Shown in pieces: positions 23,510 through 41,801 of a stretch of DNA of 64,000 nt (position 1 is the first letter of the stretch; every line of letters starts with the position of its first letter). Below the pieces are notes generated by a model. That model made no database searches and had not been told where the DNA came from. It worked only from the letters and a program-made list of their open reading frames with translations. The position numbers and the translations under genes were made by a program. This DNA comes from Bdellovibrionales bacterium (GTDB taxonomy: Bacteria > Bdellovibrionota > Bdellovibrionia > Bdellovibrionales > UBA1609), in assembly GCA_027459485.1 (NCBI GenBank), contig DAIDIG010000003.1, positions 1 through 64,000 of the forward strand, given 5' to 3'.

Positions 23510-24820
23510 ATGGGTTATTTTTTTAAAAGTCGAACACTCAAAATCATACGCGTTTTTGTTGCGAAGTATTTCACAAACCTCGCCTTAGGTGTTGCGGCAT
23601 TTTTCCTGATGTTTGGCTTAAGTTTTACCTTAAGTGGCTGCGGAGCCACGCTTGCGCAGGTGGCTTCGAGCGGTTCAAGCGGGGGCTCGACTCAAGGCCC
23701 AAGCGCGTTTAGTTTCACTAATCAAACGGGTGTTTCGCAAAGCGCAACTATCGTCAGCAACACCGTAACTCTCAGTGGTTTTACCGGCCCGCTCGCCGCC
23801 GATTGCAACGGTTGCAGCGCGATCATCCGCGATGGCGTCGTTGGTACAACATCGGCGATATTCTCGCCCGGCGACACCGTGGCGCTCGAAGTGCTCTCAA
23901 GCTCGTCTGCTAACACGGCCGTGACAGCGACGCTCACCGTGGGCGCGACAACTTCAGGCACGTGGAGTGTGACAACTGGCAGCGGATCAAGCAACACGCC
24001 AGTTGCGTTTAATTTTCAAAATCAAACAAATGTTATACCCAACACAACAATTTCAAGTAACGCTGTTCAAATTTCGGGCTTTACAGGTACGCTTACGGCG
24101 ACTTGCGATTCGGGTTGCACAAATATCGAAGTCGAGGGGGTTTGGCAGGGCGCTACGACGGCTACCGTGTCACCCGGCAACTGGATCGCTATTCAACAAA
24201 CATCGTCTTCGAGCACAAGCACGCTAACAAGCGCAAGCATTACAATCGGCTCGACAACGTCAAGCCCGTGGACAGTCACGACGTCAGCGACAACAGACCC
24301 GTGCTCTGGCTCGCCCACAATCGGCACAACATGTGCCGACGGCACAATTTATGCCGGTCTTTCACCGGACGGCAATGTGCCGATGTATACCACCCCTTGC
24401 GATATTGGTCTTACGTGGACGGGATCTGTATGCTCAGGGGTTCGCTTGACTGAAACGTGGAATGACGGCTCAACAAATTACACCGTAGTAGGAGCATCAT
24501 CAGCAACATCCGGTTCAACAAACACTGCAACTCTTGTCGCGCAAGGCACATCGCCGTCACCAGCCCCCTATAATGCCGCAAGGTACTGTGCCACAATGTC
24601 GGCCAATGGGCATAGCGATTGGTACTTACCGTCAACAGACGAGCTCAATGTTCTTTACACGAATGAGGCTGCAATCGGAAACTTTGACTTAAGCGGAAAC
24701 TATTACTGGTCGTCCACGGAGTACAGTAGTAATTACGCGGACAATCAGCAGTTCTCTAGTGGTACGCAGCCCAACAACATCAAGAACGCCACAAACGATG
24801 TCCGATGCGTGCGGAAATAG
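23510..24820 (+). CDS. DGR-diversified surface lipoprotein with DUF1566/Lcl-type C-terminal domain
   Basis: The open frame extends up to 23393, but the ATG at 23510 follows GAAGGAC and places a basic segment and long hydrophobic stretch before the lipobox (TLSGC). Two Thr/Ser-rich Ig-like repeats follow (FSFTNQTGVSQSATI and FNFQNQTNVIPNTTI). The C-terminal 130 residues form a DUF1566-like, C-type-lectin-fold domain: GLTWTGSVC, NGHSDWYLPSTDELNVLY, YYWSSTE, ending DVRCVRK. The last 111 bp before the final two codons are the variable repeat. It would display a hypervariable binding surface outside the cell. Confidence 0.92.
   Translation: MGYFFKSRTLKIIRVFVAKYFTNLALGVAAFFLMFGLSFTLSGCGATLAQVASSGSSGGSTQGPSAFSFTNQTGVSQSATIVSNTVTLSGFTGPLAADCNGCSAIIRDGVVGTTSAIFSPGDTVALEVLSSSSANTAVTATLTVGATTSGTWSVTTGSGSSNTPVAFNFQNQTNVIPNTTISSNAVQISGFTGTLTATCDSGCTNIEVEGVWQGATTATVSPGNWIAIQQTSSSSTSTLTSASITIGSTTSSPWTVTTSATTDPCSGSPTIGTTCADGTIYAGLSPDGNVPMYTTPCDIGLTWTGSVCSGVRLTETWNDGSTNYTVVGASSATSGSTNTATLVAQGTSPSPAPYNAARYCATMSANGHSDWYLPSTDELNVLYTNEAAIGNFDLSGNYYWSSTEYSSNYADNQQFSSGTQPNNIKNATNDVRCVRK
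24705..24815 (+). repeat. DGR variable repeat (VR)
   Basis: 111 bp aligning without gaps to the template repeat at 25552-25662 (constant offset 847). Eight differences: 24726, 24734, 24745, 24770, 24771, 24780, 24788, 24789. At every one the template has A; VR has G, T, T, C, C, T, G, C respectively. They change six codons (N to S, N to Y, K to N, N to P, N to I, N to A). The last 22 bp are identical in VR and TR, consistent with the IMH end. Confidence 0.95.
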
Positions 24821-24853
24821 TCTCAATCATTTAGTCATTTAATTATTTGGATT

Positions 24854-24882
24854 GCCCGCCGAAGGCGGGTCAAAATTTTTTT
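24854..24882 (+). terminator. hairpin plus T-run after the variable gene (terminator and/or DGR target hairpin)
   Basis: CCCGCC-GAA-GGCGGG at 24855-24869, followed by seven T at 24876-24882, starting 39 bp after VR. It has the form of an intrinsic terminator. In the Bordetella phage DGR a hairpin just downstream of VR is needed for target recognition, so it could serve that role as well. Confidence 0.6.
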
Positions 24883-24929
24883 AGAATTTCGCAGGCCGTA
24901 GATGCAACAAAGAATTACCGAGGCATGAA

Positions 24930-25277
24930 ATGGCTCAATATCAGCACCTTCCAATCTATCGACTCACCTATGAACTCTTGCAGCAAATTGTAAAACAGAC
25001 CAAAGATTTTCCGCGCGAATATAAATTTACTTTAGGTCAGCAAATGAAAAATGAAGTGATCGAACTTGTCGTCCTCATTTACCGCGCGAACTCGGCGCTA
25101 GACAAATCAGAGCCTATCAGCGCTCTGCTTGAACGAGTGCAAGTTGTTGAACTTTTGACCCGTCTCTGTAAAGACATGCGAATTCTGCCAACAAAAGGCT
25201 ACGCGACACTTGTAGAGATGACGGAATCGATATCTAAGCAAGCCCATGGCTGGAAGCGCGCCGTCGAGAAGAAATAA
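24930..25277 (+). CDS. avd: DGR accessory variability determinant (Avd)
   Basis: 115 residues, ATG after GAGG. All-helical, basic, four-helix-bundle type (S23-like) protein: LPIYRLTYELLQQIVKQTKDFPREYKFTLG, EVIELVVLIYRANSALDK, ALLERVQVVELLTRLCKDM, TLVEMTESISKQAHGWKRAV. This matches Avd proteins, which form a pentameric barrel that binds the reverse transcriptase and template RNA and is required for mutagenic cDNA synthesis. It sits between the target gene and TR, the standard DGR order. Confidence 0.9.
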   Translation: MAQYQHLPIYRLTYELLQQIVKQTKDFPREYKFTLGQQMKNEVIELVVLIYRANSALDKSEPISALLERVQVVELLTRLCKDMRILPTKGYATLVEMTESISKQAHGWKRAVEKK

Positions 25278-25449
25278 AAATAAACTATAATAATTTGAGT
25301 TATTGATCTCAACAATTATTAGCTATACACCAGCTCTGTGGGAAAAAGGGAGTGGTAGCCAGAATGAAATGGGTCATGGCCTATTACAGCGAGCGTCTTC
25401 CTATCTCGGGATGGGCGCGGTTGGTATTAATCCAACCTGTTTCTTGAGG

Positions 25450-25463
25450 CTTGAATATTCAAG
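25450..25463. repeat. 14-bp perfect palindrome in the TR leader
   Basis: CTTGAATATTCAAG in the non-coding stretch between avd and TR (25278-25551). This stretch probably forms part of the TR-containing RNA; I see no gene in it. Confidence 0.35.
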
Positions 25464-25551
25464 TCTTAAGGTTGGCAGGCTGAGAAATCGGTTTTACTGC
25501 CAGCAAGTAGACGCCCATCGCAACTTGTATGTTGTCAACTGGGGACTCACG

Positions 25552-25662
25552 ACTGGTCGTCCACGGAGTACAATAGTAATAACGCGGACAAACAGCAGTT
25601 CTCTAGTGGTACGCAGAACAACAACAACAAGAACAACACAAACGATGTCCGATGCGTGCGGA
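25552..25662 (+). ncRNA. DGR template repeat (TR)
   Basis: 111 bp, the donor copy for VR 847 bp upstream. About 41 adenines, many arranged as AAC/AAT codons in the VR frame (a run of four AAC at 25617-25628), which maximises amino-acid choice after A-to-N mutagenesis. TR and its flanks are transcribed and copied by the adjacent reverse transcriptase in the family. Overlapping open frames here are incidental. Confidence 0.93.
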
Positions 25663-25709
25663 GTAGAAGCCGCTCTCTTTTTCCCTTTTAAAAATGGATT
25701 TAGCAACCT

Positions 25710-26834
25710 ATGGATTTAGCATTTGAAGAAGTTGCACAAGCTTATTTTGATTGCCGCAGGCACAAGCGCCGAACCCTTTACGCACTCGATTTCGAATTTA
25801 ATTTAGAAAAAAATCTATTTAGGCTTTTCGAGGAGCTTCGCGAGGGGCGCTACAAAATCGGAAAGAGTATTGCCTTTGTTGTTGAACAGCCGAAAATCCG
25901 CGAAATTTGGTCGGCGACGTTTCGCGACCGTGTCGTACATCACGTAATTTATAACCGTTTAAGCCCGAGATTTTATCCAAGTTTCATCCGCGACACTTTT
26001 GCGTGTATTCCTGGTCGCGGTAACCTCGATGCATCCAATCGTCTTTGGGCCGGGATGCGTTCAATTACCCGCAATTGGAGCATGTCAGCCTATTTTCTCA
26101 CTGCCGACATCAGAAATTTTTTTCCGAGCATTCATAAGCCAACTCTTTACGAGTTTTTACTTACAAAGACGCCGGAGTCATGGCTTCGCGAACTTATTTA
26201 TCAAGTCCTTTTTCACGATCCTCGAATTTACTGTTGCGCGAGATCGTCAAAAGAGGCTTTTGCGCGCGTGCCCGCGTACAAAAGCCTTTGGCATGCGCCG
26301 CTAGATCGTGGGCTTCCAATCGGCAATCTCACCAGTCAATTTTGGGCTAACGTATACTTGAATGACTTTGACCAATGGATGAAACATGAGATTCGGGCTC
26401 ATTATTATTATCGCTATGTGGATGATTTCGTCGTGCTTCACGAATCGCCCGACTTTTTAAACGAATGTTTCAAACGCTCGAGTGAATTTTTAGCGACACG
26501 CCTTAAAGTCGAAATTCACCCGTTTAAGCACCGACTCGGGACAGTCGATCAAGGGGTAGATTTCGTTGGCTACTTTCATAAACCGTATCGTCGATATCTA
26601 AGAAAAAGAACCGTCAATCGTATGAAAAGTGCTGTGAACTGCTGGAGAGCTGATCCTGATGCGTTTAACGACCAGTCGCTCTTACGCCTTCGAAACACGT
26701 TTAATTCATACAGCGGGCTACTTCGTCACTCGGCAAGCTTTCGTTTGCGCCAGCATCTTGGCGAAAAGGTAAACTGCCTCTTCATTTCGCCCGATAAATC
26801 GTATGCCAAATTGATTTTACCTGTCAGAAAATGA
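25710..26834 (+). CDS. DGR-type reverse transcriptase
   Basis: 374 residues. RT motifs in order: REIWSATFRDRVVHHVIYNRL, FLTADIRNFFPSIHK (motif A with catalytic Asp), GLPIGNLTSQFWANVYLNDFD (the xxGNLTSQ form that distinguishes DGR RTs from the QGxxxSP of retrovirus-like RTs), YYYRYVDDFVVL (YVDD, near residue 234), HRLGTVDQGVDFVGYF and a basic thumb. It makes adenine-mutagenised cDNA from TR for transfer into VR. It lies 47 bp after TR and ends the DGR cassette. The next gene is convergent. Confidence 0.95.
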   Translation: MDLAFEEVAQAYFDCRRHKRRTLYALDFEFNLEKNLFRLFEELREGRYKIGKSIAFVVEQPKIREIWSATFRDRVVHHVIYNRLSPRFYPSFIRDTFACIPGRGNLDASNRLWAGMRSITRNWSMSAYFLTADIRNFFPSIHKPTLYEFLLTKTPESWLRELIYQVLFHDPRIYCCARSSKEAFARVPAYKSLWHAPLDRGLPIGNLTSQFWANVYLNDFDQWMKHEIRAHYYYRYVDDFVVLHESPDFLNECFKRSSEFLATRLKVEIHPFKHRLGTVDQGVDFVGYFHKPYRRYLRKRTVNRMKSAVNCWRADPDAFNDQSLLRLRNTFNSYSGLLRHSASFRLRQHLGEKVNCLFISPDKSYAKLILPVRK

Positions 26835-27732: not shown

Positions 27733-27752
27733 CTTAACGGATTTCCGTTAAG
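27733..27752. promoter_or_regulatory. operator palindrome 1 of the conjugation promoter region
   Basis: C-TTAACGGA-TT-TCCGTTAA-G, 9-bp arms. It starts (TTAACGG at 27734) exactly 70 bp before copy 2. It has the same arms as the site upstream of the sigma54 operon at 15968. Confidence 0.7.
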
Positions 27753-27803
27753 CTAGTTAACATCCTGATTTCGCGACATTAATCCCGAAATTTACTGTTA
27801 CCC

Positions 27804-27821
27804 TTAACGGATTTCCGTTAA
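27804..27821. promoter_or_regulatory. operator palindrome 2
   Basis: TTAACGGA-TT-TCCGTTAA, 8-bp arms, exactly 70 bp after copy 1 and 70 bp before copy 3. The DNA between copies 1 and 2 and between 2 and 3 is loosely similar as well (TTAAC and GTTA at matching positions), so these may be decayed 70-bp repeats. Confidence 0.7.
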
Positions 27822-27873
27822 CGGACTTAACCCACCGAAATTCCGAAAGAAACTGCCCGTTTTATTGTTAGCG

Positions 27874-27891
27874 TTAACGGAATTCCGTTAA
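27874..27891. promoter_or_regulatory. operator palindrome 3
   Basis: TTAACGGA-AT-TCCGTTAA, fully self-complementary. It lies 79 bp upstream of TTGGCAC (27969-27975), a possible -24 element whose -12 partner is poor. No gene is visible in 27599-28069 apart from these sites. Confidence 0.7.
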
Positions 27892-28069
27892 TTTTTTTGG
27901 TTTTCTAAACCACCGCAATTTTCACAAAAATTGCAAATTCAAAAAGTATTTCAAGCACATAAGTGCACTTGGCACACTTTGGTTTCTCGCGTGCATAAGA
28001 CCCCTCCCAGAAGAAGCGGCTCAGTGACGCGGGCCAGATGACAAACGCCAAACAAAAGGAGGTGCGAAT

Positions 28070-28468
28070 ATGTCACGAACATACAAAGACAGAAAAGACA
28101 ACCAAGTGGTTCAGTTTGCCAAATCAAAACGGCAAGCACAACCACTCAAACAAAAATACATCCGCTTTAAACAATGCGGATATGAAACGTCGAGCGCCGA
28201 AAATAACGATGAGAATTTGGATGGCAACTTATGCCCGAACTGTGGGGCGCCAACCCATTTTGAATCCTATTTTCTTACATGCGCTCATTGCGGCTGGATC
28301 GATGCAGCCGACGAGTCCATCGATTTAAAAATGCGTGCGTTTGACATACGAGCCGATGATCTCGGCGAGTGCGATTCGATGCTCAACAGCGCCGAATCGA
28401 ATCCCGACGCAGACGACGACTCAACCAGCGATTCAGACGACAGACCGGGTGCGGAAGATGCCGCATGA
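28070..28468 (+). CDS. zinc-ribbon protein, first gene of the conjugation operon
   Basis: 132 residues, ATG preceded by AAAGGAGGTG. Basic N-terminus, then a four-Cys ribbon (LCPNCGAPTHFESYF, LTCAHCGWID) around residues 60-85, then a very acidic tail (DADDDSTSDSDDRPG). No named family. The ribbon suggests nucleic-acid or protein binding; the position suggests regulation or assembly of transfer. Its stop overlaps the next start. Confidence 0.6.
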   Translation: MSRTYKDRKDNQVVQFAKSKRQAQPLKQKYIRFKQCGYETSSAENNDENLDGNLCPNCGAPTHFESYFLTCAHCGWIDAADESIDLKMRAFDIRADDLGECDSMLNSAESNPDADDDSTSDSDDRPGAEDAA

Positions 28469-28566
28469 AAAATCAAATCAACCAAAACCAACAACCAAAT
28501 AACGCGCGTGAAGATCGGCAAGCCTGCCGCTTCATCATCGCGCAAGAATTCGGAGGTGAACTATGA
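28465..28566 (+). CDS. 33-residue coupled ORF
   Basis: It starts at an ATGA overlap with the zinc-ribbon gene and ends in an overlap with the next gene (CTATGA), so it is bracketed by translational coupling. The product is Asn/Gln-rich at the start, with FIIAQEFGG at the end. No family recognised. It may only bridge translation. Confidence 0.4.
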   Translation: MKNQINQNQQPNNAREDRQACRFIIAQEFGGEL

Positions 28567-29027
28567 ATAATAACGTAATTCCAATGAAAGATACCGACCA
28601 AAATCACGACCACAAAATCGAATCCAAAACTGAGCGCTTCGGCGTTTTCACAGGAGAACTCAGCGCCATTGGCGAGTTAAAAGAAAAAGAACGAATCGGC
28701 TCCGCATACATGAAGCGCGGGACCAAACAATTTCGCCTTAAACTTTGGCTCATGAATGACACAAGCTATTTTGTTGTCACAGATCATAAAGACCAAAGTA
28801 AATACCGAATTGTAATTCCAGAAGAATTTCGTTTTTCAAATGGCGAAACGAAAACGCGCTGGCATCAAGTCGGCGATGGAGAAGTTGCTGGCACTTATTT
28901 GAAACTCAAAATCTATCTTCTGACTGAAGAATTTTTTCTTTCGATGTTTCCAGACAGATTTCAGCGCCAAGTCGGATGCGATGGAAACGGCGGCGCAAAC
29001 TTTAATCACGCCCCAGATGCGGCGTGA
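28563..29027 (+). CDS. uncharacterised conjugation-operon protein
   Basis: 154 residues, ATG after GGAGGTGAACT. Hydrophilic with a beta-rich middle (FRLKLWLMNDTSYFVVTDHK, KYRIVIPEEFRF) and no signal peptide or membrane helix. I recognise no domain. It overlaps its upstream neighbour and lies 13 bp before the pilin-like gene. Confidence 0.55.
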   Translation: MNNNVIPMKDTDQNHDHKIESKTERFGVFTGELSAIGELKEKERIGSAYMKRGTKQFRLKLWLMNDTSYFVVTDHKDQSKYRIVIPEEFRFSNGETKTRWHQVGDGEVAGTYLKLKIYLLTEEFFLSMFPDRFQRQVGCDGNGGANFNHAPDAA

Positions 29028-29040
29028 AGGAGGTGGTCTT

Positions 29041-29322
29041 ATGACTAAAAAACAAACACTTTATATTCTAACAATTGCAGCACTCATTCTTGTACCAGCG
29101 CTTGGCTTTGCAAGCGTTGAGTCCTCGCTTGTCGATATTCAAAGTAAACTCACAGACGTTATTTTGCCGACGCTCTCAATCATCGGCATCGCTATTGCTG
29201 GGTTTTCATTTTTGACGGGCCACGAGCGAGCAAAGGTTCATATTTGGTATGCGATCATCGGTTGCGCCATTGGGTTTGGCGCACAAGCAATCGTCAATTT
29301 TATTTCAGGAATGGTTCACTAA
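29041..29322 (+). CDS. VirB2/TrbC-like pilin subunit
   Basis: 93 residues. The ATG at 29041 follows GAAGGAGGTGG; a longer open frame reaching upstream is not needed. A signal peptide (ILTIAALILVPALGFA) is followed by two hydrophobic segments (VILPTLSIIGIAIAGFSFLT and VHIWYAIIGCAIGFGAQAIV) separated by a short charged turn (GHERAK). This is the hallmark of VirB2/TrbC prepilins, which build the conjugative pilus. The next gene starts at the stop codon. Confidence 0.8.
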   Translation: MTKKQTLYILTIAALILVPALGFASVESSLVDIQSKLTDVILPTLSIIGIAIAGFSFLTGHERAKVHIWYAIIGCAIGFGAQAIVNFISGMVH

Positions 29323-29681
29323 TGGAATCACTCATGACGTCAACCGTCCCACGAAGCCTCGATACTAAAAGTAAACTTTTGGGACTCGAACTTGGCGATG
29401 TATTGATTCTTCTTTTAAACCTGTCGGCTGAAAATCTGATTTTTGGCTCGACGGCTATTAAGATGCCGATGGTCCTTGGTACAAGTGCTTTGCTATTTGC
29501 CGTGTTGTTTTTTGTCAAACGCGGCAAACCCGATGGATACATCCAACACTTCGGCGAACACCTGGTTTCGCCGACCGTGCTATCGGCCAATACCATCGAT
29601 GAAGATTACCGCAAGTTTGGAGGCGCGAATCAGCTCAGCACCAGTAACGGCGTTGACTTTGCGGGTGACTCATATGAATAA
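29322..29681 (+). CDS. VirB3/TrbD-like inner-membrane protein
   Basis: 119 residues. ATG at 29322, touching the pilin stop. Hydrophobic segments (LGDVLILLLNLSAENLIF, MVLGTSALLFAVLFFV) are followed by a short basic and soluble tail, as in VirB3. Position between the VirB2-like and VirB4 genes is the canonical order and is the main argument. It is expected to associate with the VirB4 ATPase. It overlaps VirB4 by 8 bp. Confidence 0.7.
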   Translation: MESLMTSTVPRSLDTKSKLLGLELGDVLILLLNLSAENLIFGSTAIKMPMVLGTSALLFAVLFFVKRGKPDGYIQHFGEHLVSPTVLSANTIDEDYRKFGGANQLSTSNGVDFAGDSYE

Positions 29682-32199
29682 GCACGCCGCCTTATGCGAA
29701 GAGTTGCCATATTGGGAATTCGAGCCACAAGACGCCGAGCCAACTTGCCTCGCCCATTTGATTTTGTCAGATGGTTCGATCGCAGCGGCACTTGAAGTGA
29801 CGCCAATTGATATCGAATGCTTCGATGAGTCCCGCATCAACCAATTAACGCTTGGACTCCGATCATTTCTGAATGCACTGCCTGAAGGGATGACGTGTCA
29901 ATTTCTAGTCAAAGTCGACCGCGACGACGGCGCTCGGTTAAATGAGCACACAGCCCTTCGGTCAACTCGCATCGAGTTTTTATCAGCACTCGACGATGCG
30001 CGGATATCATCAATAAAAAGGAAAGTTGAAGAACGTGCTCTTTTACAGCCACGTCTTTATTTCTGCCTTCGAACAGAAGGCGTTAAGCGGCCCGGTGCAT
30101 TTTCATTTGGCGCAACAAAGAAATTCGGAGTCGAATTTAGTAAAAACTATGACGAAAGAGTTCAAACGCTTTCGCAAGCAATCGATGGTGCTGAATCCGC
30201 ACTTTCAGGACTAGGACTTAATTCAAAAAAACTCGATCGATCGGCTTTAATCAAAATTCTATATGAGCATTTAAACCCAACACGTTCTGAATCAATAGCC
30301 GTACCGAAAGTGGCAGCGCGACCCACGCTAATTGATGGCGATTCACCTCGGTCCCAAATCGTATTTGGGGATCTGATACTCATGAAAGAAGATTTCGTGC
30401 TCGACGGGAAGCGAACGCGTGTTCTGACACTAAAAACAATGCCTGAAATGACTTATGCGGGAATGATGAGCGCGTTTCTTGCATTGCCATTTAAGTATGA
30501 TCTGTTTTTAAGCTTTAAAATTCCAGACCAATCAAAAGAAATGCGAGGCTTAGAGCAAAAAAGGCGCATGGCCCATTCATTGGCGGCATCGACATCAAAC
30601 CGCGTAAGTGATTTAGAAAGTGAATCGCGTCTCACGCAAACAACAGATCTTATTCGCGAGATCATTGAAACAGGCCAGCGAATATTTCAATCAGAACTCG
30701 TTATTGTATTGCGGGCGGATAATACGTTATCCGGAAATCGAGAGCTTAACATGCAATCAAAAGAAGTGCTCTCGCGCTTCAAATGGTTAAGTGGTTCGGA
30801 AGGTATATCCGAGACCGTTGGAGCTTGGAAGATTTTTAAGAGTGATTTGCCTTTTGCCCCAATGCAGCTCGTGCGTATTAAACGCATGAAAACAAATAAT
30901 CTCACTGACTTTTTGCCGGTTTATGGACCAAAGCTTGGCGATGATAAGCCAATGTGTCTTCTCAACACACGGCTCGGCGGCATATATTCGTACAATCCCT
31001 ACGATCCAAAACTCACCAATTACAATATGCTTGTCACAGGCTCCTCCGGCAGTGGCAAAAGTTTTGCGAACAACTTTTTAATGCTTCAACAAATCGCTCG
31101 CGGCACGCGTGTATTCATAATCGATATTGGTGGATCGTATCGCAAACTCACAAATCTTCTCGGCGGACAGTATTTTGAAATAAAGCTATCAGATGATTAT
31201 TCGATAAATCCATTTTATTTGTCAGACCACTCAGAGCCACCAAGTGGCGAACGCCTCAAGGGCCTTGTGAGTATTATCGAGCAAATGGTTGTCGATGCAG
31301 GAGAAAAGCTATCAAAGTTTGATCGGGTACTAATCGAAGAAACACTCACGCAAGTATTTGAGTTCGCGCGCGCACGTGCGCCCATGAAATCGCCTCGTTT
31401 ATCTGATTTTGCCGATTTTTGCGCAAAATCGGCCGAAGAATCCCTCAGACGTATCGGCAAATTGCTCTTTCCGTGGATTGGTAATTCGCCGTACGGTCGG
31501 CTCCTCGATCGTGATGGATCAATTCAAACTGACGCGCCGGTTGTCGCGTTTGATCTTAAAGGGCTTTCGCAATACCCAGATTTGCAATCGGTCATGATCC
31601 TAATTCTCACGAATTTTATTTTGGATCAGGTTGAAAAAGACAAATCTGTTCCAAAACGGGTGCTTCTTGACGAAGCGTGGGAGCTTTTAAAAAGTCCTGC
31701 GGCAAGTTCGTTTATGGAATACGCGGCACGCACGTTTCGAAAAACAGGCTCGGGAATAACTTTTATTTCGCAGGGCTTAGAAGAATTTGTCGGAAGCTCC
31801 ATTGGTCCGGCGATTATCAATAACACTGCAACAAAACTCATTATGCTTCAAAAAGGCGACACAAAAGTATTGACCGACACGCTCAAACTCAATTCGCAAG
31901 AACTGAGGCTTATTCAAAGTCTTGAACAACGCAGAGGTCAGTTTAGCGAAGGTTTTCTGATGGAGGGTGAAACCCGTGCAGTCATTCGCATTCAACCATC
32001 ACCGCTTGAATATTGGATTTCAACAAGTGATGCCCGTGACAATCAGTTTATCGAAGAAGAGATGAACAATGGGTCGTCGCTTGAAGCTGCGATTACAAAG
32101 GCAGCTGAAGTCGCGCCATATGGTGTGGCCGCCATGAAGTCGCCCGCAACCCGCGCGGCCAATAACGGCGTTGACTTTGGCGGGGGGCCACATGAGTAA
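29674..32199 (+). CDS. VirB4/TraC-family conjugation ATPase
   Basis: 841 residues from the ATG at 29674. The N-terminal half lacks motifs but matches the family in length. The C-terminal RecA-like domain has Walker A GSSGSGKSF (about residue 460), Walker B RVLLDEAWELL, and FISQGLEEF plus the C-terminal motifs of VirB4 (ATKLIMLQKGD). The protein powers pilus biogenesis and substrate transfer at the inner membrane. It is intact and is the largest gene of the operon. An in-frame upstream extension exists but overlaps the VirB3-like gene and has no binding site. Confidence 0.93.
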   Translation: MNKHAALCEELPYWEFEPQDAEPTCLAHLILSDGSIAAALEVTPIDIECFDESRINQLTLGLRSFLNALPEGMTCQFLVKVDRDDGARLNEHTALRSTRIEFLSALDDARISSIKRKVEERALLQPRLYFCLRTEGVKRPGAFSFGATKKFGVEFSKNYDERVQTLSQAIDGAESALSGLGLNSKKLDRSALIKILYEHLNPTRSESIAVPKVAARPTLIDGDSPRSQIVFGDLILMKEDFVLDGKRTRVLTLKTMPEMTYAGMMSAFLALPFKYDLFLSFKIPDQSKEMRGLEQKRRMAHSLAASTSNRVSDLESESRLTQTTDLIREIIETGQRIFQSELVIVLRADNTLSGNRELNMQSKEVLSRFKWLSGSEGISETVGAWKIFKSDLPFAPMQLVRIKRMKTNNLTDFLPVYGPKLGDDKPMCLLNTRLGGIYSYNPYDPKLTNYNMLVTGSSGSGKSFANNFLMLQQIARGTRVFIIDIGGSYRKLTNLLGGQYFEIKLSDDYSINPFYLSDHSEPPSGERLKGLVSIIEQMVVDAGEKLSKFDRVLIEETLTQVFEFARARAPMKSPRLSDFADFCAKSAEESLRRIGKLLFPWIGNSPYGRLLDRDGSIQTDAPVVAFDLKGLSQYPDLQSVMILILTNFILDQVEKDKSVPKRVLLDEAWELLKSPAASSFMEYAARTFRKTGSGITFISQGLEEFVGSSIGPAIINNTATKLIMLQKGDTKVLTDTLKLNSQELRLIQSLEQRRGQFSEGFLMEGETRAVIRIQPSPLEYWISTSDARDNQFIEEEMNNGSSLEAAITKAAEVAPYGVAAMKSPATRAANNGVDFGGGPHE

Positions 32200-32896
32200 A
32201 CGAAAACTGTACGCACTTGTGATTCCGTGTGTTTTATTATTGAGCATCCCCGCGCACGCCGATTTTTGGGGCGGAGACGATGTTGAGCTTGCCCAAATTC
32301 TTGTTCAAGCGATTGCAACCGTTAACGAGCTTCACACAGTCATTTCTACCGGCAATGACACGCTAAACCTTCTAGATAGAATCAATAAAGGAGTCGGCGT
32401 TGGTTTGAGTGGTCTTCGCGGACTTGATCCGCGCTTTAATCCTGGCACATACGGGAACCTACAAAACCCAAACAGTGCCCTTCATGCTGTCCAAGAGATT
32501 TACGGTTCCGATCCAAGTGGCATGGATCACGACCTTATTAAGTCCCAAGATCAAAGTGTCGCTGAAGTGATTTCGATGAACAGGCGCCTTTACGATTACG
32601 CCCAAGAAGTCGACGCAGAAAAAGATAAAATATTGTTTCACGCGCAAGGCGTGAGCCCACAAGGTGCCGGACGGCTTGAAAACCAAGCGCTTGCGGTATT
32701 GATTGGCGTCACAACGGAGTTACTGCGTACCCAAAGCCAGATGCTAAAGCTCATGGCTGAGAATTTGGCGCTTTCAACACGAAAAGAAAAAATCGAAACC
32801 GAAAATGTTTATGATAATTACGGAGCTCTTTCGCGCGATTTTGCGCATTTGCCAAAAAATGTGAAGCTTCCACGGCTTGGTGGGGGTGCCCCATGA
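32192..32896 (+). CDS. VirB5/TrbJ-like exported protein
   Basis: 234 residues, ATG at 32192 overlapping the VirB4 stop. A signal peptide (YALVIPCVLLLSIPAHA) leads into a mostly helical, coiled protein: LAQILVQAIATVNELHTVIS, SVAEVISMNRRLYDYAQEVD, AVLIGVTTELLRTQSQMLKL. It resembles TrbJ/VirB5 minor pilus components, usually at the pilus tip or involved in host contact. Family assignment is by shape and gene order. Confidence 0.65.
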   Translation: MSKRKLYALVIPCVLLLSIPAHADFWGGDDVELAQILVQAIATVNELHTVISTGNDTLNLLDRINKGVGVGLSGLRGLDPRFNPGTYGNLQNPNSALHAVQEIYGSDPSGMDHDLIKSQDQSVAEVISMNRRLYDYAQEVDAEKDKILFHAQGVSPQGAGRLENQALAVLIGVTTELLRTQSQMLKLMAENLALSTRKEKIETENVYDNYGALSRDFAHLPKNVKLPRLGGGAP

Positions 32897-33771
32897 TTCC
32901 CAATATGGATTTACTTGGCGGGCTTATCATGCGTATGCACGATAGCCTTTCACACCTTTTTTATCTCATGATGCCGGTTGCAATTTTACTCTCCGTCATA
33001 ATCGGATATCTAAAATCCGGAAGTCCCGATTTTCCAGACATTGTAAAGCGCTGTCTTGTGGCGTCCCTGCTACTTGTGTCGTTCCCGTGGGTGTCGAACA
33101 TGATCTTGGATTTAGGTAATGGCCTCGCGGCACAAATCAGCAACATGCAAGGACTCAATACGTTCATGCAAATGGCTGAAGCAAAATCTCGCGATTACGC
33201 AACAGCAAAAAGTGTGATCCTATTAAAATTCGATGACCTGTTCATTGCGGTATTAAGTTTTGCAAGCTTTATACTGCTCTACTTTTCGAGATACGTCACA
33301 ATTGCGCTCTACGTTTTTTATTGGGTGCTTTTGTGTATCCTCTCGCCACTCATGATTCTTTGTTACATTTTTCCTGGAACTACAAAAATCACAACGAACT
33401 TATACAAAGGTCTCATCGAAGTGTCGCTGTGGAAGGCGCTTTGGGCGATCATGTCGGCCATGCTCACGTCGCTTTCATTCGGAACCATGTACAAATCAGA
33501 CGGATCATACGCGTCGCTCATTGTGCTCAATTTCGTGATATCGATTGCGCTTTTATTTACCCCACTCATTGCACGCTCGCTTATTAACCAAGGAATCCAA
33601 GCCACCGCTGGAACAATCGGCGGAGCCGCAGCCCTTGCGATGGTGAGCGTTCCGGCAAAACTCGCAACAGTTGCACGGACGTCACGTGAGGTGATTTCAA
33701 ACACCGGCACCTATGCGGGAGCCAAAATGACGTCCATTCGAAACACATTTAACCCTAACCAACGGAGGTGA
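32893..33771 (+). CDS. VirB6/TrbL-like polytopic membrane protein
   Basis: 292 residues with five or more membrane helices (LFYLMMPVAILLSVIIGYL, CLVASLLLVSFPWVSNMIL, LFIAVLSFASFILLYFS, VTIALYVFYWVLLCILSPLMIL, IVLNFVISIALLFTPLIA) and a Gly/Ala-rich soluble tail. TrbL/VirB6 proteins form the inner-membrane translocation channel. The start at 32893 (overlapping the previous stop) could be the later Met at 32932. The sequence is divergent; gene order supports it. Confidence 0.7.
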   Translation: MIPNMDLLGGLIMRMHDSLSHLFYLMMPVAILLSVIIGYLKSGSPDFPDIVKRCLVASLLLVSFPWVSNMILDLGNGLAAQISNMQGLNTFMQMAEAKSRDYATAKSVILLKFDDLFIAVLSFASFILLYFSRYVTIALYVFYWVLLCILSPLMILCYIFPGTTKITTNLYKGLIEVSLWKALWAIMSAMLTSLSFGTMYKSDGSYASLIVLNFVISIALLFTPLIARSLINQGIQATAGTIGGAAALAMVSVPAKLATVARTSREVISNTGTYAGAKMTSIRNTFNPNQRR

Positions 33772-33775
33772 ATTT

Positions 33776-34405
33776 ATGAATCAAACAAATATAATTCAAA
33801 CAAAACCGAATCAGTCAAAAACATTAGTTACAATACCATTTCCCAAAATGATCTTAGAATTTGCAAGAGAAAATTTCAATCTTAAGATGCTTTCTCTCGC
33901 ACTTTTATCAGTTACTTTTTTATCGCTTATGCTCGTGCTTGTAGTGCTTAGGCGCGGTCCGACTGTGATTGCCCTTGATGGTACTGGTCAGATTTCAACG
34001 ATCAACACTAAAATTACTGACCTTCAGATTGAAGCGGCGGCCAAACAGTATTTTTCATACAGATACTCGTGGAGCCCTGATACGATTTCGTCGCAGCTTA
34101 AAAAAGCCGAGTTTTTCATCGCGCCATCAGAAGCGTCTGATTTTTCTCGCTCGATGCAGGCGACAATAAAATATGTCGCCGAAAAAGATGTGACTCAACG
34201 TGTTTACCCAAGAACCATGGCAGTCGATTTTAAGAATAAATCGATTGCCGTTATTGCAGACCGGATCACCGAATTTGACAAGCTCAAAGCGGCAACCGTT
34301 CTTCACGCACGACTCAACTTTGAAATTGGTGATCGAACGGTCACAAACCCATGGGGCGTTTACATCACAAGCGAAACTGAATCCGACACAGGTAGCAGCC
34401 AATGA
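33776..34405 (+). CDS. TraE/VirB8-like assembly protein
   Basis: 209 residues, after GGAGGTG. A cytosolic N-terminus of about 40 residues, one membrane helix (MLSLALLSVTFLSLMLVLVVL), then a periplasmic domain with NTF2-like features (AAKQYFSYRYSWSPDTISSQ, VTQRVYPRTMAVDF, KAATVLHARLNFEIGDRTVTNPWGV). This is the TraE form of VirB8, a scaffold of the T4SS core. It is followed by TraK- and TraB-like genes, the F-type order. Confidence 0.8.
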   Translation: MNQTNIIQTKPNQSKTLVTIPFPKMILEFARENFNLKMLSLALLSVTFLSLMLVLVVLRRGPTVIALDGTGQISTINTKITDLQIEAAAKQYFSYRYSWSPDTISSQLKKAEFFIAPSEASDFSRSMQATIKYVAEKDVTQRVYPRTMAVDFKNKSIAVIADRITEFDKLKAATVLHARLNFEIGDRTVTNPWGVYITSETESDTGSSQ

Positions 34406-35199
34406 GTGCAAATTTTAAACTTGTTCTGTCTGAACTCGGTTCACTCGTCACATTGTTCGTAACCGAGATCACAGCACTTATTGCGCTACTTCTTATCGGC
34501 AAACCGTCCTTTGCGGTGATTCGAAGCGTTTACCCACGAACAAATAGCGTTGAAACTATTAACACCGCTGTCGGTATTGCGACAATTATCGAAACACCTC
34601 AGGCCATTGAGTCAGCCATTATCGGCGACTCGTCGGCATTCGAAGTCCAATACTTAAACAATGCCGTGACAATTAAGCCCATCCGGTATGGAGCGCGAAC
34701 GAATTTATATCTTGTCACGAAAGCAGAGCGCTACAACTTACGACTGAGTACCACAAGACAAGCGAATGCTGATTATGTCGTCTATATTAAGGACAAATCC
34801 CCATCAGAGAAGATTCGCTGGCAAAAACTCGATCGTGTGTCGCGCAGTTACTCGACTGAACTTCGCGTTTCGGAGGTTGGCCACTCGCCAGATGGATATC
34901 TATTGCTGTATGGGTATTACTACTCAGAAAACGACAAATCCATTGACGATGGATCAAGCGGTGCGCCGCCCACGCAATCGAAACTCTGGGCATCCGATAT
35001 CTGGGTTTATCAAGATAAAAAGCCAGTCGAAATAGATACGCTTTATTTATCAAAGATGACAGGAACAAAGCGAAGCCCGATATATTTTAGTCTTTCAATT
35101 AACAACGCGAGTCTCAATCGCCACGAACCGCTCGTACTTGAAATCAAGGGCCAGCACGACGTCGGCGTCGAAGTACCGGAGTATTTCGTATGGAAATGA
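34402..35199 (+). CDS. TraK/VirB9-like core-complex protein
   Basis: 265 residues, overlapping the TraE stop by 4 bp. An N-terminal hydrophobic segment (EITALIALLLIGKPSFA) acts as signal or anchor. The body is beta-rich: TIIETPQAIESAIIGDSSAF and VTIKPIRYGARTNLYLVTKA, the pattern of VirB9/TraK (strand followed by xxLxVxT). In F-like systems TraK joins TraV and TraB to form the envelope-spanning ring. It has no lipobox; the lipoprotein at 37879 might play the TraV/VirB7 part. Confidence 0.7.
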   Translation: MSANFKLVLSELGSLVTLFVTEITALIALLLIGKPSFAVIRSVYPRTNSVETINTAVGIATIIETPQAIESAIIGDSSAFEVQYLNNAVTIKPIRYGARTNLYLVTKAERYNLRLSTTRQANADYVVYIKDKSPSEKIRWQKLDRVSRSYSTELRVSEVGHSPDGYLLLYGYYYSENDKSIDDGSSGAPPTQSKLWASDIWVYQDKKPVEIDTLYLSKMTGTKRSPIYFSLSINNASLNRHEPLVLEIKGQHDVGVEVPEYFVWK

Positions 35200-36161
35200 C
35201 AAAGTTAGAACGACTTCGAAAGATGCTCTCGCGCGTGACTTCAAAACTCAAATCGCTGTTCATTAAAAAGTCGGATGTCAGCGATAAAGCTGAAGTTAAC
35301 GGTCGATCGGTCAAACTTCTTCTGGTTTCGTTTGTCTTCATTTTTGTTGTCATTGTGATTGTTATGCCGTCGCCGAAACATGTTCAATTTGAACATTTGG
35401 CGCTAGCGACAGATACGACGAGCAACACATCAAGTAACAGTTCGAGCAATACTCTGGGCGCAAACGAGACACCAAGCGGCGATTCTAATGCCGAGGCGCT
35501 TTGGGGTGATCCACGCCCCGAGGTCGCCCCTGGTGGCCTCAGTCAAAACAATCTCAATACGCCAATGATTTTGAATTCTGGCAAAAACGCCAAAACTCGT
35601 GTGCCAGCCGGTCGGGACCTGCACCTAAAGCTTCTTGATAGCTTTACGACGTCCGATGACCCAGTGCCGGTCTTGGCCGTCCTTACGATGAGCGCCGTTA
35701 CCGACTCGGGGCTTACGTTACCACAAGGAACCGAATTTTATGGCGAGGCGAACTTTGACCGTGAGTCGTCACGCGCAACAGTCGAGTTTAAACAAATTTC
35801 GCTGCCTGATGGAGCGATTCAAAACGTTTCGGGAATTGCAGTCGGAAGTGACGGACTTCCAGGCATATCCGGCGATGTCCACTCGGACGCTGTGAAAAAC
35901 ACGGCTGGTGAACTCATTACATCGTTTGTCGGCGGCTTTGCATCCGGCAGCATGCAAACCAATATACTCGGCGGCTCAAGCGGTGGTGTTCAAAACGGAC
36001 TTCTCAATGCGGCGAGCGAAACAGCTCGAAACCTCGCACAAAATTACGGAAACAAACTAAAAACAGAACGCGAATGGATCACTGTCCCAACTGGAACCGA
36101 ATTTGATGCCATTCTTACATCGTCACTAAATTTACAAAATTCGGGAGGCGCCGGTGACTAA
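35190..36161 (+). CDS. TraB/VirB10-family core-complex protein
   Basis: 323 residues. A short cytosolic N-terminus and one TM helix (LLLVSFVFIFVVIVIVM) lead into a Ser/Asn/Pro-containing linker. The C-terminal VirB10-like beta-barrel domain follows: RVPAGRDLHLKLLDSFTTSD, LTLPQGTEFYGEANFD, SLPDGAIQNVSGIAVGSDGLPG, a glycine-rich region, and WITVPTGTEFDAILTSSL. VirB10 spans both membranes and transmits the ATPase signal to the outer-membrane pore. It overlaps the TraK-like gene by 10 bp. Confidence 0.82.
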   Translation: MEMTKLERLRKMLSRVTSKLKSLFIKKSDVSDKAEVNGRSVKLLLVSFVFIFVVIVIVMPSPKHVQFEHLALATDTTSNTSSNSSSNTLGANETPSGDSNAEALWGDPRPEVAPGGLSQNNLNTPMILNSGKNAKTRVPAGRDLHLKLLDSFTTSDDPVPVLAVLTMSAVTDSGLTLPQGTEFYGEANFDRESSRATVEFKQISLPDGAIQNVSGIAVGSDGLPGISGDVHSDAVKNTAGELITSFVGGFASGSMQTNILGGSSGGVQNGLLNAASETARNLAQNYGNKLKTEREWITVPTGTEFDAILTSSLNLQNSGGAGD

Positions 36162-36193
36162 ACCGGCGACCCTCCAGAAAGGTAGGTCAAAAT

Positions 36194-37879
36194 ATGAGTA
36201 TCAAAAATGAAAATCAACATTATGAAAAATCTCTTCCAATCACAGCCGGTGCCGTCGCACTTGGCATCGGTTGGCTGAAATATAGATACCAAATTCTTTT
36301 ATTCTACGTTCATTATCGAATCGCGATTGCGTTTGTGATTTCATGTATTGTTTTTGCGATTCTAATAAAGGTTCTCGATAAAATTGAAAAAGCTCGTGCC
36401 CCAGGTGATCTTGAAAAGCACGTCCTTCGTGAATCAAAAGATGAAGACTCAGTCTTTATGGGTTTTACCGATAAAGGTAAGCGCGTTTATTTTAAAGAAT
36501 CGATGAGACGAAAACATATTAGTGCCACTGGAACAACCGATGCCGGCAAGTCGGAATCAGTTACCATTCCGCTATCAATTCACGATATGAAAAAAGGGCG
36601 CGGGCTTATCATTATCGACGGCAAGTCAGATTTCAGTCTGATTGATAAGATTTACGCTTACGCTCGGGCTTATGACCGCGAGCATGATGTGCGTATTCTT
36701 TCAATTTGCAACCCTGAGATTAGCCAAACATTTAATCCGCTAGCCGGCGGCACGCCGCTTGAAATCACAGAGCGCGTTTTTAAAGCGCTCACATTTGAAA
36801 ACGAGTATTACAAAAATATTCAGTACACAACACTTCTTCAAACGCTTCTTATTTTTGAAGCGGCCAAGATTAAACCGACTCCACTCAAAGTGGTTGAAGC
36901 CTTGCGATCAAAGGAGCGAATTAAACATCTCGCAACTTTGACCCAAGTTCCAGCACTTATCGAGTGGGCAACGGAGCAGTTTTCACTTTCTCGCGAGGAG
37001 CGAGAACAGCGAACGAGTGGGCTCATTACACAACTTCAAGTTATGACAGTCGGAGAACTTGCGCCCATTTTCAATGCTGAAGACCCTGCCATTAACATGG
37101 ATGAGGCGTTTTCAGCTCGGCATATTATTTATTGCCAGCTCCCGGTCGGTAAGATTCCCACACTCGGTAAATCAATCGGTCGACTTGTCCTACAATGTGT
37201 TCAAGGAGCGGTCGCTTCACGGCATCTCGACAGAAATAAATCCCGAGAGTTTTTCTCCGTTTACCTCGACGACTTCACGGAATACCTGACAGAAGGTTTT
37301 GTGACTCTGCTCAACAAATCTCGAAGTGCCAACGTCGGTATTGTGTTTGCCCACCAGGCAATCGGCGATCTCGCAACTTTAGGAGAGCCGATCAAAAACT
37401 CGATTCTTACGAACGCAAACGTTAAGGTTTTTATGAAAACTAACGAACCTGACTCTGCCGAATACTTTGCAAAAACAATTGGCACCATTGAAACCGCGAA
37501 AGTTACTGAGCGACAAAAAAGCGGTGCCTTTGGCCACACAAAGACCGGCGAAGGTTCGGTCAGAGAGGCTGAAGAATTTAGGGTCCATCCCAACGTGTTC
37601 AAACAGGAACTCGGCGCCGGAGACGCCGTCGTCATTTTGCCGCACAATCGTGGAAGTCTTCCGGTACGGATGCACTTTCGAATGCTACCCGACCTCGACC
37701 CCTATGAGCTGCCTCGAATTAAAAAACCAGTGCCACAGAGTCTACCGCCACTTCCTACGGACACCGATGCGCCAACCGTGCCTGACGGCTCTACGGTGCC
37801 TAGCGGTTCTCCAGCGCCCGATTCGATGTCAGGCGGCATGGTGGATGAGGCAAAGAAAAATAACGGGGAGGCTGCGTGA
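36194..37879 (+). CDS. type IV coupling protein (VirD4/TraD family)
   Basis: 561 residues. N-terminal hydrophobic helices (YQILLFYVHY, IAIAFVISCIVFAILI) are followed by an ATPase domain: Walker A GTTDAGKSE (about residue 117), IIIDGKSDFSLIDKIY, Walker B EFFSVYLDDFTEYL, and NVGIVFAHQAIGDLATLG, a signature of coupling proteins. The tail is Pro-rich. It links the relaxase-DNA complex to the secretion channel. The upstream RBS (AAGGTAGG) lies in a 32-bp gap, the longest in this operon. Confidence 0.92.
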   Translation: MSIKNENQHYEKSLPITAGAVALGIGWLKYRYQILLFYVHYRIAIAFVISCIVFAILIKVLDKIEKARAPGDLEKHVLRESKDEDSVFMGFTDKGKRVYFKESMRRKHISATGTTDAGKSESVTIPLSIHDMKKGRGLIIIDGKSDFSLIDKIYAYARAYDREHDVRILSICNPEISQTFNPLAGGTPLEITERVFKALTFENEYYKNIQYTTLLQTLLIFEAAKIKPTPLKVVEALRSKERIKHLATLTQVPALIEWATEQFSLSREEREQRTSGLITQLQVMTVGELAPIFNAEDPAINMDEAFSARHIIYCQLPVGKIPTLGKSIGRLVLQCVQGAVASRHLDRNKSREFFSVYLDDFTEYLTEGFVTLLNKSRSANVGIVFAHQAIGDLATLGEPIKNSILTNANVKVFMKTNEPDSAEYFAKTIGTIETAKVTERQKSGAFGHTKTGEGSVREAEEFRVHPNVFKQELGAGDAVVILPHNRGSLPVRMHFRMLPDLDPYELPRIKKPVPQSLPPLPTDTDAPTVPDGSTVPSGSPAPDSMSGGMVDEAKKNNGEAA

Positions 37880-38175
37880 TGAAGCGAAAATACAACGCGA
37901 TCTTTATCGCTGCCGCATCAATGGCACTACTCGCGGGCTGTGCTAACTCGCCCACTTGCGGGAATGCCCCAAACGCACATACTGTGTACTTCGGCCACTC
38001 CTGTCGCGAGCGCATCAAACAAGTCATTGTGGGATCGGAGATTAACATCCCGTCAAATATCAAGCGCGATGCGCTTTCAAATTTTGACTTACAGTGGAGC
38101 GATACATCAGTTGATGGCGGCGAGGTTACACTCGGTCATTATGATCTAGTGCCGAAGGATGATGCCGGGCGATGA
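37879..38175 (+). CDS. small lipoprotein (VirB7/TraV-like position)
   Basis: 98 residues. The ATG at 37879 overlaps the coupling-protein stop. Signal with lipobox ALLAGC at residues 16-21, then a mature part with four further Cys (SPTCGN, HSCRER region). T4SS core rings need a small lipoprotein, and this is the only candidate in the operon; sequence alone does not prove that role. Its end overlaps the relaxase-like gene. Confidence 0.6.
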   Translation: MKRKYNAIFIAAASMALLAGCANSPTCGNAPNAHTVYFGHSCRERIKQVIVGSEINIPSNIKRDALSNFDLQWSDTSVDGGEVTLGHYDLVPKDDAGR

Positions 38176-38984
38176 ATAAATCATACGATCAAGTTAAAAA
38201 ATCGACGATTGATTTTGCAGCACGATTCGGATTTGTGACGCAAAGTTTATTTTTTGAGTATTTGTGTCCGAGGCAAAAAACGCAGCAATATTGGTATTGG
38301 CGCGAGCTGGAGCGAGACAACATTATACGGTCGTCAAACTCCCTGGATCACGTTTTTTATTTAACAAACACCGGCCGCAAGCAAACTTTGCGGCCGGTTA
38401 CCCCAGCTCGATCCGTATTTTTCGTCGAACACGATAGCAGCACGGCGGCACTATATTTTGAGCTCGAACGCTCAGGCTTACTGCTGCAATCATGGACCGA
38501 TTACGAACTGTCATGTAATCCTCTGGACTCCTGTGGTGTCCTAGGATCAGATCGATTAGAAAAAATTCCGGACCTTGTCGTCGATATGAAGTCGAAAGAT
38601 GGTCGACTCAGAATTGCTTTTGAAATGGAGCGATCGCGAAAGTCAAACGAGCGTTACGGCCATGCGGCGCTTCAATATCTTCGATTCAAAAATGTGAATC
38701 TACTCCTATATTGCTGCAGTACCGAGGCGACAATGAAGGCAGTCGAGCGCGCTTTTAACGCCGAAGTATTTCGAAAAGCCGAAAAGACGCCGGTGCTATT
38801 TTTATCGTCAGATTTCGAAAAATCAAAAATGCAGGCCGAAGCCCGCTTCATGGGCTATCGGCTCTCCCTTAAAAAATTGATATTAGCTGCACTGAAGCAG
38901 TCTGAAACAAATTGGCAAAAAACACCGGAAAACGCCCGGAATGAATTCCGGACGATTTCCGACACTAAAAAGGAATCGGCTTGA
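38172..38984 (+). CDS. probable relaxase of MOBC / replication-relaxation type
   Basis: 270 residues. The N-terminal third looks like a winged helix (TIDFAARFGFVTQSLFFEYL...WYWRELERDNIIRS). The middle has IPDLVVDM...LRIAFEMERSRKSNERY: an Asp and a Glu on neighbouring strands followed by KS and RY, the restriction-nuclease-like active-site pattern of MOBC relaxases and PF13814 proteins. It follows the coupling protein and immediately precedes an oriT-like repeat nest, the expected place. No Tyr/HUH relaxase is present elsewhere in the element. The family call needs a profile search. Confidence 0.55.
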   Translation: MNKSYDQVKKSTIDFAARFGFVTQSLFFEYLCPRQKTQQYWYWRELERDNIIRSSNSLDHVFYLTNTGRKQTLRPVTPARSVFFVEHDSSTAALYFELERSGLLLQSWTDYELSCNPLDSCGVLGSDRLEKIPDLVVDMKSKDGRLRIAFEMERSRKSNERYGHAALQYLRFKNVNLLLYCCSTEATMKAVERAFNAEVFRKAEKTPVLFLSSDFEKSKMQAEARFMGYRLSLKKLILAALKQSETNWQKTPENARNEFRTISDTKKESA

Positions 38985-39011
38985 ATATTTTAAAAGCGAT
39001 TCCATTACTTA

Positions 39012-39113
39012 GCGTCCCCCCAACCCCGTCCCACTCGGCTTCGCCGTCCGTGACCACCCCCAACCTACCAGTTGAAGGTGGTCACGTACCGTGGTTCGGG
39101 GTTGGGGGGACTA
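39012..39113. other. probable origin of transfer (oriT): nested inverted repeats
   Basis: Outer arms GTCCCCCCAACCCCG (39014-39028) and CGGGGTTGGGGGGAC (39097-39111), 15 bp and perfect. Inner arms CGTGACCACC (39049-39058) and GGTGGTCACG (39077-39086), 10 bp and perfect, enclosing CAAC/GTTG. A further small hairpin CGGC-TTC-GCCG lies at 39036-39046. It occupies the 167-bp gap between the relaxase-like gene and an accessory gene. A terminator is less likely: there is no T-run. Confidence 0.6.
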
Positions 39114-39151
39114 GCCCTAAACATAAATCATATTAACAAGTGAGGTGAACT

Positions 39152-39595
39152 ATGAAAGAAGAAACAATACAAAATACAGAAATAAATAAATCAAAAAACG
39201 AATCCAAAGAAATTAAATTCAAAAAAGACAAAGATGAAGCTCAAGTTACAATTTCGCTCGATTCCGAACGAAAACTAAAACAATTACTTGAACGAGTAAA
39301 CAATAATTTCGAATTTGGTAAAATCACGCGAAAACAATTACTCGATCATGTGATTGAACAAGCGACGCTCGATTTTACGGATGACAATATTCAGGCCGTA
39401 AGACAAAGCTGCATTACCGATCTTATGCTATTCGAAAAGCAATTTCGAGTTGCAAAAAAGACTGGCGTTGTGCCGGATGCGCTACGCGAATACTTATGGA
39501 AATCAAGCGACCTAACTCACAGTCCCAAACGAAACAAAAAGACTAGACTAGAGAAGTATAACAATGATATACATGAAAATGAGGGGGCCACATGA
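39152..39595 (+). CDS. putative relaxosome accessory / DNA-binding protein
   Basis: 147 residues, ATG after AGTGAGGTG. A highly charged N-terminus (Lys/Glu/Asn-rich) precedes AQVTISLDSERKLKQLLERV, which resembles the beta strand and first helix of ribbon-helix-helix proteins, with RKQLLDHVIEQATLDF as a second helix. The tail is basic (SPKRNKKTRLEKY). Location next to the oriT-like repeats fits a nicking accessory protein that bends or marks oriT. Overlaps the next gene by 4 bp. Confidence 0.5.
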   Translation: MKEETIQNTEINKSKNESKEIKFKKDKDEAQVTISLDSERKLKQLLERVNNNFEFGKITRKQLLDHVIEQATLDFTDDNIQAVRQSCITDLMLFEKQFRVAKKTGVVPDALREYLWKSSDLTHSPKRNKKTRLEKYNNDIHENEGAT

Positions 39596-39855
39596 GTCCG
39601 AAGCACATCAAAAAATTAAGAAAGAGCTTTGGATTTACGCAAAAAGTGATGGCCAGGGCGTTTGGTGTCGGAACCTTGACCATGAGTCAATATGAAAACG
39701 GTGTTCGAAATCCTGGGCCGACTGCGCTCATTTTGTTAGAACTGTTAGACTCATTGCCGAAGAAAAGGTCGCTTGAGTTATTTAAACTTTTCCACTCGAA
39801 GGCTAAAGAGCTTAAGCTTGGCAGTGGTAGTTCGACGCATGAGTCGCCCAACTAA
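39592..39855 (+). CDS. XRE-family HTH regulator
   Basis: 87 residues. HIKKLRKSFGFTQKVMARAFGVGTLTMSQYENGVRNP is a canonical XRE/Cro-type HTH (FTQKVMARAFGVG, then TLTMSQYENG). The following GPTALILLELLDSLPKK is the usual continuation. Likely a repressor or antitoxin-like regulator controlling the integrase/oriT region. No toxin partner is recognised beside it. It overlaps the upstream gene. Confidence 0.75.
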   Translation: MSPKHIKKLRKSFGFTQKVMARAFGVGTLTMSQYENGVRNPGPTALILLELLDSLPKKRSLELFKLFHSKAKELKLGSGSSTHESPN

Positions 39856-39874
39856 AAGGAAAGGGTCAAAAACG

Positions 39875-40039
39875 ATGACGAACGTGCAATCTATGAAACT
39901 TGAATTTATTAAAGATGAATCCGGGCAATCTGCGAGCAGATCGGCAGAGGTATTAAATTTAATTGCACAGATGATTGAATTGTCTCATAAACGCGGGCGA
40001 CCCTCCAAAGGCGACGAGGTGAACAGCTATGCCGCTTAA
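39875..40039 (+). CDS. small AT-hook-like protein
   Basis: 54 residues, ATG after AAAAGGAAAGGG. The C-terminal HKRGRPSKGDE contains the RGRP core of AT-hook minor-groove binders. The helical part before it (SRSAEVLNLIAQMIELS) may mediate pairing. Its stop codon overlaps the start of the integrase gene, so it is likely co-translated and may be an excision or directionality factor (inference from size and position). Confidence 0.55.
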   Translation: MTNVQSMKLEFIKDESGQSASRSAEVLNLIAQMIELSHKRGRPSKGDEVNSYAA

Positions 40040-41762: not shown

Positions 41763-41801
41763 CATGCCATGCTAGCGCTCTCCCAGCTGAGCTACGGGCC
41801 C
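41726..41801 (-). tRNA. tRNA-Ala(GGC)
   Basis: 76 nt with encoded CCA. Minus-strand acceptor GGGCCCG pairs with CGGGTCC (one G-U pair). D arm GCTC/GAGC, anticodon stem CTAGC/GTTAG, loop ATGGCAT with anticodon GGC, T arm ACCGG-TTCGATC-CCGGT, discriminator A. The tRNA remains complete because the element carries or restores its 3' end. It serves as attachment site of the ICE lying to the left. Confidence 0.95.

Follow-up and report, generated by a model that had tools for sequence, protein, structure and literature searches.

A diversity-generating retroelement from Bdellovibrionota with a structured RNA module, putatively part of its template RNA, upstream of the template repeat

The window analysed here, a stretch of 64,000 nucleotides, corresponds to positions 1–64000 of contig C3 in a genome of 2.75 Mb whose relatives are Bdellovibrionota. 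It carries the following elements of a diversity-generating retroelement (DGR):

23510–24820, plus strand: target gene, an open reading frame starting with the ATG at 23510, with a C-terminal Lcl_C (DUF1566) domain (PF07603, E 6.6e-11, over the cut-off)
24705–24815, plus strand: variable repeat (VR)
24855–24869, plus strand: GC-rich hairpin CCCGCC-GAA-GGCGGG about 40 nt 3' of the VR, a target-side hairpin or terminator
24930–25277, plus strand: avd (accessory variability determinant; bAvd PF22296 over the cut-off; phrog_3206, E 2e-27)
25340–25356, plus strand: 5' arm of the closing helix, GGGAAAAAGGGAGTGGT, forming 17 bp with 25669–25685 (p 0.0005 against shuffles, 0/19 cross-locus)
25355–25521, plus strand: conserved structured RNA module, a P0 hairpin followed by a P1 multi-branch junction (models R1/R2; covariation on alignments A4, A6 and A7, the members of A5, A7 and A8 having been picked partly by earlier models)
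25365–25388, plus strand: P0 hairpin with a YNNG-type tetraloop and the flanks GCCAGAA and AGCGAGC (covariation, 19 loci)
25410–25417, plus strand: 5' strand of P1, GATGGGCG, pairing with 25512–25519
25512–25519, plus strand: 3' strand of P1, CGCCCATC (covariation, six loci)
25552–25662, plus strand: template repeat (TR), located by repeat comparison with the VR
25669–25685, plus strand: 3' arm of the closing helix, GCCGCTCTCTTTTTCCC, 6 nt after the TR
25710–26834, plus strand: DGR reverse transcriptase (RT; RVT_1 over the cut-off, YVDD)

An earlier note on this DNA had described VR and TR as repeats of 111 bp with eight differences, all of which are adenines in the TR, and an ungapped comparison reproduced precisely this pattern. 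With an adenine content of 37% in the TR, the restriction of eight out of eight mismatches to adenines would be expected by chance with a probability of about 3.5e-4. A second complete DGR cassette (L002), which carries the same RNA module and an RT that is 64% identical, is located on the same contig of this genome (241581–244004, minus strand), and there all 12 of 12 differences fall on TR adenines. The same was observed in relatives (7/7, 16/16, 10/10 and 15/15), so that adenine-only differences have been seen in six cassettes altogether. Searching the TR against its own genome returned only the TR/VR pairs of these two cassettes and no further VRs. The changes were said to affect AAC, AAT and AAA codons, which is borne out by the six codons that are altered from TR to VR: AAT to AGT (S), AAA to AAT (N), and four AAC codons to TAC (Y), CCC (P), ATC (I) and GCC (A). 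The VR resides in the coding C-terminus of the target, whose DUF1566/Lcl-type domain, as proposed earlier, scores over the Pfam cut-off; a lectin-like nature of this domain is assigned by family only. As the protein sequence contains a lipobox-like LSGC motif, its product may be a surface lipoprotein. The 3' ends of VR and TR are invariant, and hairpins with loops of 3 nt and differing stem sequences follow the VR in six cassettes; for known DGRs, the hairpin 3' of the VR has been described with a 4-nt GRNA loop (PMC3240598).

The assignment of the two remaining genes relies on family models. The Avd protein reaches 57 bits with NF033474, which is under that model's cut-off of 80. The RT is 30% identical to Brt of BPP-1, the best-studied DGR (E 2e-42), and both belong to phrog_1423 (E 7e-102 for the RT of the window); its closest solved structure, 8ub7, is that of a reverse transcriptase. 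The retron RT model NF038233 scores only 48 bits against a cut-off of 235, placing the protein outside the retron RTs as this model defines them. Open reading frames and Pfam families agree with the gene order target, avd, TR and RT that had been claimed. This order had been called standard, which holds for the genes but not for the RNA layout, as the structured RNA occupies the avd-TR interval, unlike in BPP-1. Judged from the adenine-only TR/VR differences in a C-terminal Lcl_C domain together with the avd and RT families, the locus is a genuine DGR, as the earlier note had stated, and as such it is of a known kind. In L002, L014 and L134, the start codon of the RT open frame is located inside the 3' end of the TR (MCAE... 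in another frame), and TR and RT gene can thus overlap.

Several features of the surrounding DNA should be mentioned. Genes for type IV secretion or conjugation (TraC/TraG, TrbL, CagX, TrbI and T4CP) reside beside the DGR at positions 28000–41762 of the window, and in the same region a serine recombinase ends beside a tRNA gene (41729–41801, minus strand). This region is likely to represent an integrative conjugative element adjoining the DGR. At 27734–27895, in the interval separating the DGR from the conjugation genes, three copies of a palindrome-like sequence, TTAACGGA(A/T)TTCCGTTAA, were observed, which possibly serve as an origin or operator.

The gaps between avd and TR and between TR and RT gene measure 274 nt and 47 nt, respectively. 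Four cassettes show conservation of the avd-TR stretch, and the minimum free energy folds of six cassettes are concordant in predicting the P0 hairpin followed by a junction that is closed by the 8-bp P1 helix and encloses further hairpins. Across the six loci, 93.5% of the cells of the module are paired, compared to 36–51% for slid control structures, and 16 of the 31 pairs display changes on both sides; the 32 double-change cells compare to 10.6 in shuffled alignments (0/500 shuffles). P1 is paired to 100% in these loci, and in five of its eight pairs both partners have changed. For P0, the comparison could be extended to 19 loci from several phyla and from phages, in which 95% of the cells are paired (34–47% when slid) and 58 double-change cells occur versus 15.5 after shuffling. 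An Rfam search with the module yielded no match, and a promoter scan directly ahead of it gave signals not clearly above chance.

The distribution of the module was determined using two covariance models, R1, which was trained on six sequences, and R2, which was built for P0 from 21 sequences. R1 identifies L022, a locus outside its training set, at 5e-27, and also finds distant DGRs in Bacteroidota, Parcubacteria and phages. Across 369 genomes of the phylum, its strong matches sit at DGRs, including a decayed cassette (G053) and a distant cassette with the arrangement avd-module-TR (G232). In the former (G053:C6:416740, L187), what is left of the cassette is the VR gene, avd and a portion of the RNA module, TR and RT having been lost. 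With R2, each matched locus gave a single match, in 70 of 97 sources and in 23 of 30. In all 62 matched DGR loci with a located TR, 49 of which were not used for training, the module ends 87–187 nt 5' of the TR on the same strand; 12 related loci with a located TR gave no R2 match. Within the 5'-module group, the models find nothing 3' of the TR. Some loci display deviating arrangements. In Gastranaerophilales-type metagenome-assembled genomes (L026–L033 and L052), avd is immediately followed by the RT gene, an intervening TR and a VR pair are both absent from the locus, and the template must reside elsewhere or have been lost. Four phage DGRs of the same group (L054, L094, L117 and L124) possess two or three VR targets per TR.

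A second element connects the two ends of this region. Bases just 5' of the module pair with bases just 3' of the TR to form the closing helix, which was assessed by an ungapped helix score against shuffles, a test that replaced RNAduplex, as the latter is too permissive over 330 nt. Helices of 10–22 bp occur in ten loci including that of the window (the others being DGR2, G007, G016, G249, L021, L022, L034, L053 and L024). In all of them the 5' arm ends 0–2 nt before a conserved GC and the 3' arm begins 5–13 nt past the TR, while the sequences of the arms vary widely from locus to locus. For eight members of the clade tested against shuffles, the combined Fisher p is 6e-15. The closing helix is clear in the clade of the window and in a few other loci; what the main phage group displays is only a shorter helix, in which the 3' flank of P0 pairs with the end of the TR (UUGAAUCUG/CAGAUUCAA, GGUAACCUG/CAAGUUACC) and which is weak per locus (Fisher 6e-6). 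In most helix-bearing loci, (U/C/G)AGC directly follows the helix. In L188 and L016, the GCC after the closing helix is replaced by ACC, which provides a natural test of the role of that G.

Relatives of BPP-1 Brt were collected from GenBank. In VP58.5, ACA1 and a Vibrio phage, avd is separated from the TR by 8–25 nt and the R2 match starts exactly 7 nt after the TR. In Burkholderia phage Magia and Pseudomonas phage phPA-G, the module precedes the TR. The model R3, applied to 87 relatives of VP58.5 and BPP-1, gave 14 matches starting 6–14 nt past the TR and two off-target matches elsewhere. In BPP-1, the best R3 match corresponds to the first 50 nt of the spacer and is weak (E 0.6); R1 found no match in BPP-1, and most of its close relatives are without an R3 match. 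Aligning the P1 junction of the 5' group by eye to the remainder of the BPP-1 spacer gave no convincing match, and for this reason the priming adenine was not transferred from BPP-1. In the reading favoured here, the module would be homologous to the BPP-1 spacer. In the RT tree, ten 3'-module rows and 24 5'-module rows are placed on opposite sides of one branch (support 100/100), although several of the ten lack a model match and were classified by spacing alone (short avd-TR gap, TR-RT gap of 113–161 nt). Magia and phPA-G, which were found through Brt, group with the 5' set. The clean split is in part a matter of sampling, since a query from the 5' group itself was used to collect most of the 5'-module loci, and in a full survey the layouts may be divided less cleanly. 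The 5'-module rearrangement appears to define a whole branch of DGRs.

Taken together, we consider it likely that this is a chromosomal Bdellovibrionota DGR which uses adenine-mutagenic retrohoming to diversify the Lcl_C tip of a surface lipoprotein and whose template RNA has the opposite arrangement to that of BPP-1. The support is comparative: besides the TR/VR pattern, it comprises the module and its conserved position, the closing helix, and the agreement of the two layouts with a deep split among the RTs. By analogy to BPP-1, the module may bind and load RT-Avd and position cDNA priming. In 3'-module RNAs, the 3' end of the TR runs directly into P0. In 5'-module RNAs, the P0 hairpin and P1 junction, which putatively load the RT-Avd complex, are placed 5' of the TR, and the closing helix would bring the 3' end of the TR beside P0 again. 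The simplest reading is a circular permutation of one RNA that would preserve the geometry of RT-Avd loading, with the helix substituting for the lost covalent link between TR and module in a retron-like topology.

It might further be speculated that priming itself is retron-like, the closing helix corresponding to the retron a1/a2 stem and cDNA synthesis starting at the 2'-OH of the conserved G that immediately follows it. The helix stops 0–2 nt before this G, mostly within (U/C/G)AGC, and in retrons the terminal stem of 8–30 nt likewise ends at the priming G in TAGC, also CAGC or GAGC (PMC6868368); the locus in the window also displays a terminal stem ending at AGC, a likeness that concerns topology only. 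However, the spacer of BPP-1 recruits bRT-Avd and provides an internal adenine that primes the cDNA (PMC12875486), the conserved G is an A in L016 and L188, the latter being the second G249 cassette, and the conserved GC is also engaged in a predicted 2-bp pair within the module. We regard such priming as conceivable but rather doubtful.

Less probable still, and in our view unlikely, is that the 5' structure is a cis-regulatory element of the RT gene, such as an attenuator or a translational control, and not part of the template RNA machinery. Its position on the 5' side of the RT gene would fit, as would the 3' arm of the closing helix, whose end is 24 nt away from the RT start codon, and a P2 hairpin that appears terminator-like in a pattern scan, near chance level. 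Yet the module stays with the TR and not with the RT gene: it is found 5' of the TR when the RT is encoded on the other strand (L053), ahead of the TR (L158), after the TR along with avd (L035), or at a distance (L041 also belongs to these cases), and it resides 3' of the TR in phages of the BPP-1/VP58.5 type. An ordinary BPP-1-type DGR, in which the RNA recruiting the RT would follow the TR and untranslated filler would make up the avd-TR stretch, would agree with the shared gene order but is very improbable, as the TR-RT gap measures only 47 nt, compared to 144 nt in BPP-1, and yields no model match, and it is the avd-TR stretch, with the module at 25355–25521, that is conserved and covarying.

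A permuted template RNA, as favoured here, would have several consequences. In the literature searched, priming and templating of DGR cDNA have been described from a single phage, BPP-1, with the structured RNA following the template. In the DGR literature, which was covered in part, we found no description of a 5' module or a permuted layout, and an earlier mention is possible. If a major RT branch has the module before the template, re-linked by a helix, the mechanism based on BPP-1 needs a second form, the shared geometry with the TR 3' end next to P0 becomes the essential feature, and DGR RNAs become directly comparable with the msr-msd RNAs of retrons. If priming occurred in retron fashion, the two systems would share their priming topology. 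The strongest version, that a large DGR branch employs a permuted template RNA (5' msr-like module, TR and closing stem) primed at the conserved G, and that BPP-1 is unrepresentative, is a tentative proposal that we hold to be more probably wrong than right. In practical terms, the covariance model finds TRs and also decayed and split DGRs without needing a VR, and the placement of the module tells engineers which RNA flank to retain.

Among known systems, BPP-1 (mtd-avd-TR-brt) shares with the locus in the window the order of target, avd, TR and RT, the adenine-only TR/VR changes, and a related RT and Avd (phrog_3206). In BPP-1, however, avd abuts the TR and the structured spacer of 144 nt follows it, in contrast to the module 5' of the TR and the short 3' gap observed here. 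Phage DGRs of the VP58.5/ACA1 type possess the same P0 module (GCCAGAA-hairpin-CAGUGC) according to both R2 and R3, but there it starts 7 nt after the 3' end of the TR, whereas in the window the entire module lies upstream of the TR. Retrons (msr-msd) similarly have a structured RNA at the 5' side, the template downstream, and a stem that pairs both ends and terminates at a conserved AGC (PMC6868368). They differ in that the template in the window is a TR that shares homology with a target gene, and in that its RT and Avd belong to DGR families.
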